Positions 5,154 to 49,127 of a stretch of 64,000 nucleotides of DNA are shown piece by piece. Location: NCBI GenBank assembly GCA_016933155.1, contig JAFGBM010000004.1, positions 1 to 64,000 on the forward strand. Direction: 5' to 3'. Made by a program: the position numbers and the translations under genes. The notes beneath the pieces are model-generated. The model worked only from the letters and a program-made list of their open reading frames with translations. It searched no databases and had not been told where the DNA came from. This DNA is from Demequinaceae bacterium (GTDB lineage Bacteria; Actinomycetota; Actinomycetes; Actinomycetales; Demequinaceae). Position 1 is the first letter of the stretch, and every line of letters begins with the position of its first letter.

Positions 5154-6067
5154 GATGACCCCGCGAGTTCGTCGGCCTGACCGCCCAAGCCGTTCGCGAG
5201 CCTGAAAACCCCTTCCTGGGCGACGCTGGCCACGAGCCTCCCGTCCTCGGAGAAGACCCAGGCCCCGGTGAGGCCGCGCCCGCCCTGCGCGGTGGGGGCA
5301 TCCTGGACGAACAGGAGCCACTCGTCGGCCCGCGCCGACCGGTGCCACCACATGGCGTGATCGAGGCTTGCGATGGTGATCCCCGGAGTCGCCCACGAGA
5401 TCCCATGACGCCGGATCAGGGGCTCGAGCATCACCTGATCGCAGCCGAACACAATGAGGGCGCGGTGGGTCAATTCGGACACATCGATGGGGCGCCGGAT
5501 CCTCATCCAGGTGGTCTGGTAAGCGCGGGGATGCGGGTCGACCCGGTCGAAAAGGGTCCCCTCGACGTGGCGCACATCGAAGGGGGCATCCTTGAGCCAG
5601 AAGTCGGCCATCGGCTGCCCCTCGTAACCCCGCAGGACCTCCACGCCGGGCTGGGCCTCGTCCGGGGGCGGCACCTCGGGCATGAGGATGGAATGGTCGA
5701 AGCCCTCCTCCCCCTCCTGAAACGACGAGATCATGCTGAGGAGGGGGCGTCCCTCCTGGAAGGCGTGAGTCCGACGGGCGGAGAAGGACCGCCCGTCCCG
5801 GAGGAGTTCGACCTCAAACCGGATCGGCCGTGTCGCATCCCCCGGCCTCAGGAAATAGGCGTGAAGGGAATGGACGTGTCGCTCCGCCGCGACCGTGTGA
5901 CCGGCCGCGATCAAACCCTGAGCGAGCATCTGCCCCCCGAAAACCCGATCACCGGGAACCCTGAGGGAGTTGCCCTCGAAGACCGTGGGCTCGAGTGGCG
6001 TGAGGTCGAGGATCCCCAGGCCGGACGCCACGGCGGCCTCTCCCCACGGGTCGTCCGGCTTCATCAT
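5150..6067 (-). CDS. tesB: Acyl-CoA thioesterase II (TesB family)
   Basis: 305 residues, close to the 286-300 typical of TesB. The double hot-dog layout is clear: the N-terminal FGGQMLAQGLIAA helix near residue 43, HSLHAYFLRPGD near 66, then RDGRSFSARRTHAFQEG near 90, and a second hot-dog with TPGITIASLDHAMWWH near 230, whose D is the catalytic aspartate of the family, and a final RLVASVAQEG strand. The enzyme hydrolyses medium/long acyl-CoA to free acid and CoA in the cytoplasm. It is convergent with the small membrane-protein gene. Confidence 0.93.
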   Translation of the reverse strand: MMKPDDPWGEAAVASGLGILDLTPLEPTVFEGNSLRVPGDRVFGGQMLAQGLIAAGHTVAAERHVHSLHAYFLRPGDATRPIRFEVELLRDGRSFSARRTHAFQEGRPLLSMISSFQEGEEGFDHSILMPEVPPPDEAQPGVEVLRGYEGQPMADFWLKDAPFDVRHVEGTLFDRVDPHPRAYQTTWMRIRRPIDVSELTHRALIVFGCDQVMLEPLIRRHGISWATPGITIASLDHAMWWHRSARADEWLLFVQDAPTAQGGRGLTGAWVFSEDGRLVASVAQEGVFRLANGLGGQADELAGSS

Positions 6068-6132
6068 CGAGTTCCCTTCTTTGGGTCCACTCCGAGGCTA
6101 CCGCGTCCGACCGCTTCCGCTACAGTGACGAC

Positions 6133-6780
6133 ATGACGTCGGGCCCAGAGACGCAGGATCCGTTTCTCACTAGGCCGGATCGCTCCGTCCGATCTGGGCG
6201 GCCGATCGATGCCCCTCCTCCGGCCGGACCCCGGCTCGACGGCCCCCCTCCCCCGGCCCGCCCGGTCTCGTGGTCCGCCATCTCCGATCCCGAGGTGAAC
6301 GGCCCGCCTCCTCTCGGGGGTTACCCCCAACCCTTTGCACGGACGTGGAAGGTGACACGCCGGAGGTGGGGACGCGCGTGGCTGGCGTTCCTCGCCCTTG
6401 GGGCGCTTTTCGGTGTGTTCCTCGGCACCGCCTATCCGGCCACCTATGGGTATGACGAAACGTCCGGTGTACCCTACTCCATCGGGACTTTCTTCGGGCT
6501 GACGATGAGCTATCTCGCGTTGTTCGGCTGGTGGCTCGACCACATCCTGGCGCAGGCGGGCTTCAAGGTCTCGCTTCTCGTGCAGGCCATTCTTGCCGGA
6601 GGGGTCGGGCTGATGGCGGGCTCAGGAGCCGAGACCAGCGGCGATCCGCTCGGATATCCCACCGGGTACCTCTTCCTCTTCGGCGTCCTTGCCGTCGCCC
6701 TCGCTAACTACGCCAGCAGGAAGGTCGAGGGATCCTTCAGACCCCCGGATGAGTCCTCCTACTCCCCGTCCGGCATGTAG
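6133..6780 (+). CDS. Proline-rich multi-pass membrane protein, unknown
   Basis: 215 residues. The first 75 are hydrophilic and rich in P, R and G (PPPAGPRLDGPPPPARP), followed by three or four hydrophobic segments at about 80-102 (AWLAFLALGALFGVFLG), 118-137, 143-160 and 175-192. No enzyme motif is visible. The layout resembles the proline-rich-head membrane proteins common in actinobacteria, but I cannot name a family. The 3' end overlaps mscS by 22 bp on the opposite strand, so neither gene can have a separate terminator there. Confidence 0.65.
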   Translation: MTSGPETQDPFLTRPDRSVRSGRPIDAPPPAGPRLDGPPPPARPVSWSAISDPEVNGPPPLGGYPQPFARTWKVTRRRWGRAWLAFLALGALFGVFLGTAYPATYGYDETSGVPYSIGTFFGLTMSYLALFGWWLDHILAQAGFKVSLLVQAILAGGVGLMAGSGAETSGDPLGYPTGYLFLFGVLAVALANYASRKVEGSFRPPDESSYSPSGM

Positions 6781-44748: not shown

Positions 44749-44940
44749 ATGCCCACCTACGCCTACGCCTGCCGCGACTGCCACCACCGGTTCGAGGTCG
44801 TGCAGTCGATGAATGAGGCCTCGCTCGCCGCGTGCCCCCGATGCGACGGCTCCCTCCGAAGGGTCTTCGATCCCGTCGGGGTGGCCTTCCGAGGCGCAGG
44901 CTTCTATCGAACCGATTCCCGGCCGAAAGACAAGGAATAG
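44749..44940 (+). CDS. FmdB family zinc-ribbon regulatory protein
   Basis: 63 residues. MPTYAYACRDCHHRFEVVQSM and AACPRCDGSLRRVF hold two CxxC knuckles, the complete zinc ribbon of the FmdB family; the end is basic/acidic and unstructured (RPKDKE). Family members are small DNA- or protein-binding ribbons of uncertain role. It is 5 bp behind the 5-FCL gene, which is its common actinobacterial neighbour. Confidence 0.94.
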   Translation: MPTYAYACRDCHHRFEVVQSMNEASLAACPRCDGSLRRVFDPVGVAFRGAGFYRTDSRPKDKE

Positions 44941-44950
44941 ACGGAGCCGG

Positions 44951-47900
44951 CTACCAGTGCGGGGGCCGGTCGCGTCGGATCTCGTCGTCCCGGCTCCCCG
45001 ACCCGGGATCCCCCCAACCCACGTCCGTATCGTCGACCGACCGGGAGGGGAGGATGCCACCCGACGGAGGCTCCGGCATCGGAGGGCCAGGGGGGGCCGG
45101 TTCGGGCTCGGGCGCCGGGTCCGGTTCGGGCTCGGGCCCGGGTTCCGATTCGGGCTCGGGTTCCGGTTCGGGCGGTTTCGTCGGGACGCCGAACACGGTC
45201 CTGATCTGATCCGCGGCCGCCTCCGGATCCATGAAGACATCGAGGGTGAAGAGCGGCACCACCACCCACCCGAGCGCCTCAAGTCGCTTCCTCTGCCACC
45301 TGACCTGATCCCGAAGGCTCGTGCCCTGCTCCGGGGGCGCCTCGTCTGTCACGATCGCGACCGAAGGTTCACCCCCGATGGCCCCCACGACGAGGGGAAT
45401 AGTCTCTCCCCCCGCGCCATAGCGCTGGAAAACACTGAGCCCGTTCCCCAGCCTCCTCGCCAGGTCGGCGAAGAGCCAATCCCCCTCCTCGCTCCTCGGC
45501 GGGGGCGGACCGGCGTCGGCCAGGGCCACGAGGTCGGCGAAGGCGTCCACCCCATGTCCCAGCTTCCCCTGTTTCGCCGCCCAGCCCAGGTAGTCGAGGG
45601 GCAGGGCGGTGACGACCACGACGTCCCGTTTGGCCGCGACCAGGGCTTGCCTGAGCGCCTGTGCCCCGAGCGGGGAGGAGAGCACTCCGAGCCTTTCGGG
45701 GTATTCCCCCCGGGTGTCGGGACCGTAGCCGAGGGTCAGGACGACGACATCGGCCTCGGCCCCCGCGGCCCTTCCCAGAACGAGCACCGGAACCTCCCGA
45801 TGCGCCCCGTCGTCCCAATCCTCGAGCGCCTCCCTGACCTGGGCGGCGTGGGCGTCGTTTGCGGCAATGACGAGGCGATCCAACCCCTTGAGGGAGGCGA
45901 CCTTGACGCAGGTGGCCGCGACCTCAGCCTGGGTCGTCTCCACCCCGATCAATCCCGGGGCGGGCATCGACACCGCGTCAACGGTGACGAGTTCGAGCGA
46001 ACCCCCGATCCCAGCCGCTGGAAGGGATTCGAGCTCCGAGCCGTATCCGTACTCCGAAAGCACTGCCGTCACGCGGGGATCCCGCGGCTCCGGCAGGGCA
46101 TGGAGGATGAGGTCGGGCAGGATCTCCTTCAGGCCAGGGATCGCCCCCCTCGTGGCCGCATGCGCGTCACCGAGCGCGACGACCTGGACGGAACGGGAGA
46201 TCGCGGGGACAAGTTCGGCGAAGGACGTCGACTCGATCCCGACCAATACGACGGTGTCGACGACCCGCTCCGGCGGGATGAGGTCGGAAGCCTGCTCGGC
46301 CGAGCATAGGACGACCGGCCGAAGCGCCCCGACGAGTTCGGGAAAACGAGCCCAGAGATCCCTGAATGGCCCGTCCCCGCCCTCGACCAAGGTGGCGAAC
46401 ATGTCCCGGGAGTCATCCTGTCTCTGGGCGATGGCTGAGCGCCGGCGTTCGCCGACGGCCCTCAGGAGCGGATGCACCCTGCATTCCGCGAACTCGCGAT
46501 CGCTCGCCAGGAACCGTTCTGCGGCGCGTCCGATCGCGCCATACCTGGCAAGTGCGGGAGCCTCGGCCAGGATCGCCTCGAAGGCGGACGCCCACCAGGC
46601 GAATTCGATCTCGGCGGCCGCCGCGGATGGGGGAACGGACCTCGATGCCAGCTCGTCGAAGAGGACCTCGAGCCCGAGTCCCAGAAGGTGTTCCTGCGTA
46701 TCCCGTACCTCGGACTCCTCGGGGGGCAGTTTCCGGACCTCCGTCAACGATTCGAGGGCGGCCTTGAGCTCCTTCCAGGACCTCTCTGCAAGGCGGCCGC
46801 GGCCCGTCACCGCCTCGACGACGGAGGACAGCCTCGACCAGAGGGCCCAGGCCTCCGCGTTGTGTGCATCGTAGGCGTCGAGGCCGTCCGGCACCCGGGG
46901 CCAACCTCCGCCGCCGCAGTGGGCTCGCCATTTCACCGCCTGGCCGTGGGCCCTCACGAGCGCCTCGTGCAGGCCCTCGGCCGTTCGACCGGGACGCAGC
47001 AACTCCTCGGCCTGACGCCTCAGGGCCTTGGCCTCACGCTTCGGCAAGGTGGCGGCCAGGCTCGACCCCTCCGGCGCGGTCGCCGCGATGAGGTCGGCGA
47101 GGGCTCCTTGGAAGACCGCGGGAGTGAAGCTCTCGAGCGTTGTCCGAAGCTCGTCGAAGAGCCTCACCTGTTCTGTCCATGCCTGAAGCGACCCGGCCTC
47201 GTCGATGCCCGCCTCCATCGCGGCCTCGGTTGCCGCCTCCCTGAGCCGGGGAAGATGGCGAAGCAGGAACGTCGTGAGCATGTCATCCAACTCCGCCCCC
47301 CGCTGCTCGTCGAGGACCGTTCCCTCCCACCAGCGGCGGGAGGGCTCGTCCTCGGGGGCATCCGGGGCGGTGGCCGACGATTCCGGCAGGGGTGTTCCGG
47401 GATCCGCTTCGTTTCCGGGACCCCCGGCGTTCTCGGAACCCTCAAGCCTCCTGCCCCCGATGGTCTCCTCGGCGAAGAGCGCCCCCTGGGTGTCGGCGGC
47501 CACCCTCGCCTCATACTCCCGGGCGGCGGCTGCCGCCACCACCTCGATGCCCCGCTCGACGATGTACTGGACCGCCGTCTCCGCGATCCTGACGGGGGTC
47601 GACGGAGGCTCAAGAGCCGATGTCAGGCGGACGATCTCTTGGACGGCACGATAGGCGCTCACCCCCCAGGGGGCGCGTCGGCGGTGCAGCTCTTCGACCC
47701 TTTCGCGAAGCACGGACCGGGTCTCGATGAGCCGTTCCCCCGCAACCCGGAGCGCCGCCTCGTCCATGGGTGGAGTCGAGGACGTCATCGACTCGAGGAG
47801 CCTCGTGCGGGCGGTGGAGTTCCAGTGGTTGTCCGTCCCGCTCACGTAGAGGTCGCCCGCACCCACGGCGTCGAGGGTGTACGCCACGGACTCCACCGGA

Positions 47901-48844
47901 TGTGCCGTCCCGCCGACAACGGCGACCACGCGTCCCGAGGCGGCCCCGTCCGCGGCGATGGCCGCAGCCATCCTGATCGAGTCCGCGCCCGGCGGGACCT
48001 GGATGAAGAGGTTCCGCCCCGTGGCGATCACGTCGAGGGCGGCGAACTCGACATCGTCCAGGTCGCCGAGGCCCCTCTCCGCGAAGGGATCCCTGTCCCC
48101 CGGGGTCGGGGCCGGGAGCGGGCCTCCGAGTTCCTCGCGGATGCTTCGATCCCCGGCGGCCGCCGCGAGGACGGTGTTGGAGGCGATGAGGTGGCTGCAT
48201 TCGTCCAGGTCGTCGAGCAGCCTCTGCTCGGGATCGTCGAAGGATCCGAGGAGGAGAACCTCCTCGACGACGAGGTCTTCCCCGAAGGCCTCCGTCAGCC
48301 CGCGGATCTCATCCCAGAGGGGACGGGGGTCGAACTGAGGCCCGGCGAGCGTGGCCCGGACCGTCGCATCGAAGGATCGCTCCGGGAGCCTGGACCGGAG
48401 CTCGGCCGCCACCACCGGGTTCAGAGCCACCGCGTGGTGGAGGGTGACCTGGATGTCGGACCCCCGGGACGCTTCGAACGTCACCGGCCGCACCAAGAGG
48501 GGCATGACGTGAAGAGAGCCGTCGTCCGACCACGAGACGCTTCCCACGGCGAGCCCCCCGGTCGCGACTCCCGCCGTCAGGCGTGCAGCCTCGGCCTGCT
48601 CGTGTATCATCCGCGCGATCGAGAGGGCCGGGGCCTGGGCCTCCGGGTCCCGGAAGAGGCTGGACACCAGGGTCGGGCGTTCCGCGAACAGCTGCGCGAG
48701 ACCTCCGGGATGCGCGCCGATGATGTCGAGGACCATGGACCTGGAGAGGTCCCGGAGGGGTGACGGCGTCGCCTCCCCCTCCAGGTCCCGACGCCAGTCG
48801 CGAAGGGCGTCGGCCACAAGGGCGCGCCCGATATAGTCCACCAC
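44951..48844 (-). CDS. Motif-dead SF1 helicase-like protein with nuclease-like C-terminal domain
   Basis: 1297 residues. The overall layout follows the DNA2-like/DUF4011-type helicases: RecA-like start with ALDVIATGRNLFIQVPPGADSIRMAAAI near 270-300, a long helical insert, a second RecA-like half near 850-1090 (VDTVVLVGIESTSFAELVPAISRSVQVVALGDAHAA; DVVVLTLGYGPDTRG), and a restriction-endonuclease-like domain with RWQRKRLEALGWVVVPLFTLDVFMDPEAA near 1175-1205, as in the MTES_1575/DUF559-type nuclease. All expected catalytic sites are altered: GPPGTGKS reads VPPGADSI, DEAS reads GIES, GDPKQ reads GDAHA. The tail is a Pro/Glu repeat (about 1217-1250). Function unknown; a structural or regulatory DNA-binding role is possible. 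It is the longest gene in the window and lies downstream-convergent to fmdB. Confidence 0.8.
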   Translation of the reverse strand: MVDYIGRALVADALRDWRRDLEGEATPSPLRDLSRSMVLDIIGAHPGGLAQLFAERPTLVSSLFRDPEAQAPALSIARMIHEQAEAARLTAGVATGGLAVGSVSWSDDGSLHVMPLLVRPVTFEASRGSDIQVTLHHAVALNPVVAAELRSRLPERSFDATVRATLAGPQFDPRPLWDEIRGLTEAFGEDLVVEEVLLLGSFDDPEQRLLDDLDECSHLIASNTVLAAAAGDRSIREELGGPLPAPTPGDRDPFAERGLGDLDDVEFAALDVIATGRNLFIQVPPGADSIRMAAAIAADGAASGRVVAVVGGTAHPVESVAYTLDAVGAGDLYVSGTDNHWNSTARTRLLESMTSSTPPMDEAALRVAGERLIETRSVLRERVEELHRRRAPWGVSAYRAVQEIVRLTSALEPPSTPVRIAETAVQYIVERGIEVVAAAAAREYEARVAADTQGALFAEETIGGRRLEGSENAGGPGNEADPGTPLPESSATAPDAPEDEPSRRWWEGTVLDEQRGAELDDMLTTFLLRHLPRLREAATEAAMEAGIDEAGSLQAWTEQVRLFDELRTTLESFTPAVFQGALADLIAATAPEGSSLAATLPKREAKALRRQAEELLRPGRTAEGLHEALVRAHGQAVKWRAHCGGGGWPRVPDGLDAYDAHNAEAWALWSRLSSVVEAVTGRGRLAERSWKELKAALESLTEVRKLPPEESEVRDTQEHLLGLGLEVLFDELASRSVPPSAAAAEIEFAWWASAFEAILAEAPALARYGAIGRAAERFLASDREFAECRVHPLLRAVGERRRSAIAQRQDDSRDMFATLVEGGDGPFRDLWARFPELVGALRPVVLCSAEQASDLIPPERVVDTVVLVGIESTSFAELVPAISRSVQVVALGDAHAATRGAIPGLKEILPDLILHALPEPRDPRVTAVLSEYGYGSELESLPAAGIGGSLELVTVDAVSMPAPGLIGVETTQAEVAATCVKVASLKGLDRLVIAANDAHAAQVREALEDWDDGAHREVPVLVLGRAAGAEADVVVLTLGYGPDTRGEYPERLGVLSSPLGAQALRQALVAAKRDVVVVTALPLDYLGWAAKQGKLGHGVDAFADLVALADAGPPPPRSEEGDWLFADLARRLGNGLSVFQRYGAGGETIPLVVGAIGGEPSVAIVTDEAPPEQGTSLRDQVRWQRKRLEALGWVVVPLFTLDVFMDPEAAADQIRTVFGVPTKPPEPEPEPESEPGPEPEPDPAPEPEPAPPGPPMPEPPSGGILPSRSVDDTDVGWGDPGSGSRDDEIRRDRPPHW
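45097..45174. repeat. Pro/Glu-encoding tandem repeat near the end of the helicase-like gene
   Basis: Imperfect units of GGTTCGGGCTCGGG repeated about four times. On the minus strand they encode PEPEPEPESEPGPEPEPDP. Low-complexity tails of this kind vary in length between strains by replication slippage. Confidence 0.8.
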
Positions 48845-49051: not shown

Positions 49052-49127
49052 TGGTGCGCCTGGCCGGAATCGAACCGGCGACACCCGCCTTAGGAGGGCG
49101 GTGCTCTATCCCCTGAGCTACAGGCGC
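49052..49127 (-). tRNA. tRNA-Arg(CCU)
   Basis: 76 nt including encoded CCA. Acceptor GCGCCTG/CAGGCGC, D-arm TAGCTCAGGGGATAGAGC, anticodon stem CCGCC/GGCGG around CTCCTAA (anticodon CCU), T-arm GCCGGTTCGATTCCGGC. Confidence 0.96.

Follow-up and report, generated by a model that had tools for sequence, protein, structure and literature searches.

The locus examined here raises the question of what keeps a large protein in place once the active sites of its superfamily are gone. In a 64,000-nucleotide stretch from a Demequinaceae bacterium (contig JAFGBM010000004.1, positions 1 to 64,000; here called the window), the minus strand at 44951..48844 encodes a helicase-nuclease-like protein of 1297 residues. 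In alignment, its GTG start falls on the first residue of homologues, a conserved position, and the only stop codon lies at its end (44951-44953), so that the full-length frame without frameshift described by an earlier, sequence-only reading is borne out by 1297 open codons. We consider it likely that this protein is a domesticated pseudoenzyme, descended from an active superfamily 1B (SF1B) helicase joined to a Vsr-like nuclease, which would now act as a non-catalytic structural or regulatory binding factor. Residue loss and selection are observed directly, and the mechanism is inferred. More tentatively, and with somewhat less than even confidence, we propose that the conversion is order-wide: an anti-phage-type helicase-nuclease would have become a universal non-catalytic housekeeping factor, with live and dead orthologues at one locus forming a natural enzyme-to-pseudoenzyme series.

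Both former active sites of the window protein are degenerate. In the first part of RecA domain 1 (residues 246-330, 47855..48109; like all features of the gene given below, on the minus strand), which is collinear with the AAA_11 region of the intact orthologue L085, Walker A has become VPPGADSI (residues 283-290, 47975..47998), with Ser289 at the lysine position. By alignment, motif II is VGIES (residues 868-872, 46229..46243), in which Val868-Gly869 replaces the acidic DE pair, and motif III is LGDAHA (residues 891-896, 46157..46174), in which the motif's aspartate is retained as Asp893. The claim that every ATPase motif was lost thus holds for the motif changes described, but not for Asp893. 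Motif VI in RecA domain 2 (residues 936-1113, 45506..46039; assigned by structure match and motif comparison) is without its arginines (TRAR), reading ALVAAKRD instead of AITRSRRR, and the window family also shows erosion of motifs IV and V, which contact nucleic acid. The nuclease site is gone as well, an addition to the earlier account, which named ATPase motifs only: in the REase_MTES_1575/Vsr-like domain (residues 1120-1215, 45200..45487), Pro1150 and Val1165 occupy the positions of the catalytic acids (IDxxV, VExD), and only Asp1167 is retained.

These losses are shared across the Demequinaceae. The gene was free of internal stops in all 47 sampled genomes of the family, where Demequina homologues are 46 to 49% identical to the window protein. 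In the 37 proteins aligned from the family, PPG[AS]D or a close variant stands where Walker A was, and none has the lysine; motif II is xES, and the protein ends in PPHW. Because the degeneration is common to every aligned member, it is fixed in the family rather than an artefact. We therefore reject a sequencing error or a pseudogene, since all family genomes agree and are stop-free; sequencing error had been named in advance as an outcome that would overturn the sequence-only reading.

The ancestry of the protein is nevertheless legible through its intact relatives. Searched alone against Pfam, the window protein matched only PF18741 (REase_MTES_1575), at 26.2 bits and below the 38.2 cut-off. 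L085, by comparison, matched AAA_11 (1e-18), AAA_12 (4e-8), DUF4011 (1e-6), and PF18741 (3e-21; 75.7 bits), and its sequence also matched SMUBP-2 (1.5e-13). DUF4011 (PF13195) was matched by six of seven aligned members (best, 2e-6) and not by the window protein. All 19 order representatives matched the anti-phage models ProA (NF058533) and Hhe (NF042953). The ProA profile scored the window protein at 99.7 bits (8e-29) and L085 at 801 bits, neither reaching the equivalog cut-off of 1500 bits, and PDC-S37 was the best PADLOC match wherever PADLOC was searched (window protein, 73 bits, 2.5e-21). At the structural level, RecA domain 2 of an AlphaFold2 (AF2) model aligned with UPF1, Sen1, Aquarius, IGHMBP2, and DNA2 over approximately 140 to 165 residues (VIA-align Z 12-14), and its best Foldseek match was IGHMBP2 (E 1.3e-4). 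The part that could be modelled is thus SF1-like rather than an unrelated fold and, together with the collinear intact orthologues, upholds the helicase-plus-Vsr-like-nuclease ancestry first proposed from the letters alone. We place the protein in the SF1B (UPF1/IGHMBP2-like) helicase plus Vsr-like nuclease lineage, within the DUF4011/ProA/Hhe/PDC-S37 group.

The distribution of the gene is far wider than could be seen from the window. An even sample of 99 genomes from the order was searched with the N-terminal 461 residues of the window protein, and 97 of them, representing 52 of 53 genera, gave a match; the two genomes lacking one were drafts, 62% and 92% complete. Sampling across the class gave matches in 34 of 198 genomes, 16 within the order and 18 outside it, the latter mainly from one large-genome family. 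No relative was found in the viral contigs searched. Even a 0.8-Mb genome (L072, G096; 99% complete) keeps the dead gene beside fmdB as an intact frame of 1205 codons, although the protein is strongly diverged, at only ~24% identity. A gene tree built without the motif columns showed 21 family-label changes for 21 families, where the minimum possible is 20. The surroundings are equally stable: a convergent fmdB lay within a few kilobases of the gene in 16 of 20 representative loci and in all seven Demequina loci, with mscL, galU, moeA, rimJ, and a 5-formyltetrahydrofolate cyclo-ligase gene as recurrent neighbours. In many families mscL sits between fmdB and the gene, or beside the gene (L085, at 5852-6316; L069, L070, L071, L073, L074, L079, L081, L082, L084, and L087), whereas in the window and in Demequina fmdB is directly adjacent and mscL is not there. 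Given that the tree follows family taxonomy and that the live loci L074 and L085 have fmdB and mscL in common with dead loci, live and dead forms are vertically inherited orthologues, and the gene is near-universal in its actinobacterial order.

This distribution bears on whether the protein still serves anti-phage defence, as a non-catalytic sensor that would bind a phage protein or phage nucleic acid and thereby signal or block. In favour of such a role, its close profile relatives are all known or candidate anti-phage proteins, and vertical inheritance is seen in the intact forms as well. Defence genes, however, are usually patchy in distribution and horizontally moved, while this gene is nearly always present, tracks taxonomy almost exactly, and occupies a fixed housekeeping locus; we regard a surviving defence function as unlikely. 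Dead paralogues are often regulators of live ones, and the protein could instead be an inhibitor, decoy, or regulatory subunit of an active long DUF4011-type relative in the same cell. Relatives of this type (1800 to 2300 residues) do occur in the family and in the order, but only sporadically, and in the window's own genome AAA_12 was unmatched and AAA_11 gave nothing above the cut-off. Since no long active partner is present there, that role is largely refuted for the window's genome, and we judge it very improbable overall.

We then set live against dead forms, using 88 full-length orthologues that represent 17 families of the order, with additional sequences from four families outside it. 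The Walker A lysine was missing in 83 of the 88; the remaining five, from families f5 and f17, keep it together with the DE of motif II. The intact orthologues L085 (G062, f17), L074, and L120 (f5) belong to the same gene tree and are collinear with the window protein over its full length, but differ from it in keeping GPPGTGKSQT, DEASQ, GDERQLPPT, and IDLAV...VExDG, and are presumably active. Where the lysine is lost, its substitutes vary (A, V, G, T, S, Q, or P), and in several of these families the rest of the P-loop (GTGxTQ) is still recognisable, which marks the lysine as the critical loss. Outside the order, single representatives of families f45 and f26 keep the lysine, whereas all six sampled f38 genomes (L166, L168-L170, L172, and L173) carry arginine at that position of a P-loop that is otherwise well formed (GTGRTQ), apparently through an inactivation of its own. 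Three changes of lysine state occur on the best tree, though a single clade of dead forms was not rejected by the approximately unbiased (AU) test (P = 0.14).

The same comparison speaks to a cryptic activity, in which nucleotide would be bound outside the classical motifs or the nuclease would work with Asp1167 and other ligands. Asp893 is present in 82 of the 88 orthologues and Asp1167 in all 88, and some members of f5, f6, f7, f14, f15, and f17 hold both nuclease acids. The window family, however, has dispensed with the nuclease acids, the lysine, both acids of motif II, and the motif VI arginines, and we think a cryptic activity of either kind there quite improbable, less so than the partner-inhibitor role but more so than a defence sensor.

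If the active sites are gone, the protein might simply be decaying. We estimated the ratio of nonsynonymous to synonymous substitution (dN/dS) by the Nei-Gojobori method in 180 pairs with moderate dS; the pairs are non-independent, and most are from Demequina. Whole-protein values were about 0.09 to 0.40 among the pairs listed, with one pair of intact forms at 0.26. Regional medians were lowest, at 0.12, in the first part of RecA domain 1, which contains the dead P-loop, followed by the nuclease domain (0.15), the N-terminal domain (0.18), the second part of RecA domain 1 with the insertion (0.19 to 0.20), and RecA domain 2 (0.30). The whole protein is therefore under purifying selection, and with every domain well below 1 and near-universal retention, the earlier suggestion of selection for a job other than ATPase gains quantitative support. 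A functionless gene in slow decay would fit the loss of both active sites and a P-loop that drifts on between families; it is refuted by the stop-free frames of the family, the dN/dS values, retention in the 0.8-Mb genome, and the family-wide conservation of PPG[AS]D as a new consensus at the P-loop, and we give it next to no credence. Constraint has also moved, judging from aligned residues. Of the positions invariant in four intact forms, the fraction retained in dead forms was highest in the nuclease domain (0.59), the second insertion segment (0.56), and the N-terminal domain (0.52), and lowest near the ATP site (motifs II/III, 0.37; P-loop, 0.42), indicating a shift away from that site.

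In the pseudoenzyme model that we favour, the window protein would have lost ATP hydrolysis and nucleic-acid cutting, and three of its regions would serve as binding surfaces: the N-terminal domain (residues 1-245, the DUF4011 region, 48110..48844; predicted local distance difference test [pLDDT] score ~80 over most of residues 30-205), the long, mostly helical insertion (residues 331-830, 46355..47854), whose second part is among the best-retained stretches between live and dead forms, and the nuclease-fold domain. In lineages that have it, the disordered tail could provide a short docking motif for a partner. This low-complexity Pro/Glu segment (residues 1220-1297, 44954..45187) has a conserved WG...RPPHW end (PPHW at 44954-44965); RPPHW is invariant in the window family and present in five others, including the live form L085. 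The role would be a housekeeping one related to nucleic acid or nucleoprotein, which we favour over strain-specific immunity given that almost all genomes retain the gene. Simple DNA binding, with the protein sliding on nucleic acid, is made less plausible by a strongly acidic composition (isoelectric point 4.7) and by the eroded motifs IV and V, and a basic DNA-binding surface is ruled out by negative net charge in every region.

Several observations weigh against the pseudoenzyme model or limit its detail. The AF2 model of residues 16-1215 has a mean pLDDT of 49, and RecA domain 1 is mostly low in both models; with prediction this poor, the assignment of that domain depends solely on alignment to the intact orthologues. 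The tail motif is the protein end in only 18 of 99 orthologues. Conserved neighbours say little about function, as they are convergent rather than co-operonic. Finally, catalytic loss is read from residues, and ATP or nucleic acid may conceivably be bound without the classical ones.

The domain set itself is already known. The profiles that the window protein matches best are ProA and PDC-S37, as do its intact orthologues, at about 800 bits; the models are longer, however, their catalytic residues are lost in the window protein, and the gene here is chromosomal, near-universal and at most a putative defence gene. Hhe and MTES_1575 of Microbacterium testaceum, after which PF18741 is named, have an SF1 helicase followed by a Vsr-like nuclease, as here. 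MTES_1575, described in 2013 as combining these with HEPN, transglutaminase, and winged helix-turn-helix domains (PMC3710099), exceeds 2100 residues, and none of its three additional domains was matched in the window protein; in Pfam scans, neither the window protein nor its relatives matched a HEPN model. In Pseudomonas aeruginosa, a core DUF4011 gene flanks a defence hotspot (PMC10250203). The SF1B helicases UPF1, IGHMBP2 (SMUBP-2), Sen1, and DNA2 have the same RecA domain 2 fold, but the window protein has lost motifs I, II, and VI and carries an extra N-terminal domain and an insertion of ~500 residues. That N-terminal domain had no convincing match in the PDB (best Z 4.3; Foldseek E >0.5), and searching PDB sequences with the profile of the family returned low-complexity matches only. 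Utp25 of the yeast small-subunit processome is reported to be a conserved helicase-like protein and is called a pseudohelicase (PMC9539457); it is a eukaryotic ribosome-assembly factor, likened here by pseudohelicase status rather than by established relatedness. The dead family was not described in the literature on MTES_1575, PDC-S37, ProA with DUF4011, and actinobacterial pseudo-helicases, of which few subscription papers were covered, and the order-wide, catalytically dead orthologue group is absent from the literature searched. That essentially every sampled species keeps a protein of ~1300 residues whose superfamily-defining active sites are lost points to an unstudied cellular role, and for most members of the group, names like "helicase" or "defence protein" may mislead. 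Deletion and complementation at this locus, where both intact and dead orthologues are found, offer a direct way to study how an enzyme turns into a pseudoenzyme.

Minor features of the gene and its surroundings were also recorded. A Glu-Pro repeat tract (PEPEPE), which differs in length among species, is encoded in the C-terminal part (window 45060-45180), where the plus strand gives an apparent glycine-rich open reading frame (ORF). In place of the RPPHW tail, the C termini of L070, L074, L079, and L080 (f3, f5, f9, and f11) carry a winged-helix-like helical stretch (e.g., AAALRDELGVTRRSYRIDTAVRSAIARAL). PPHW was rejected as a shared C-terminal tag: among the other PPHW sites of the window's own genome, only one ORF, of 33 codons, ends there. 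The convergent neighbour at 44749..44940 on the plus strand encodes an FmdB-type zinc-ribbon protein (PF09723 match). Upstream of the gene lies a tRNA-Arg(CCT) (49052..49127, minus strand), and several other families have the same tRNA close to the gene, in varying orientation. A candidate paralogue at C7:290745 of the same genome was dismissed, its one weak segment, which matches the nuclease and tail regions of the query at 29% identity (8e-4), being probably due to chance. The host also carries two other small ORFs with above-threshold PF18741 matches, at G000:C14:9667-9891 and G000:C11:52086-52358 (L177 and L178; 352 and 397 codons).

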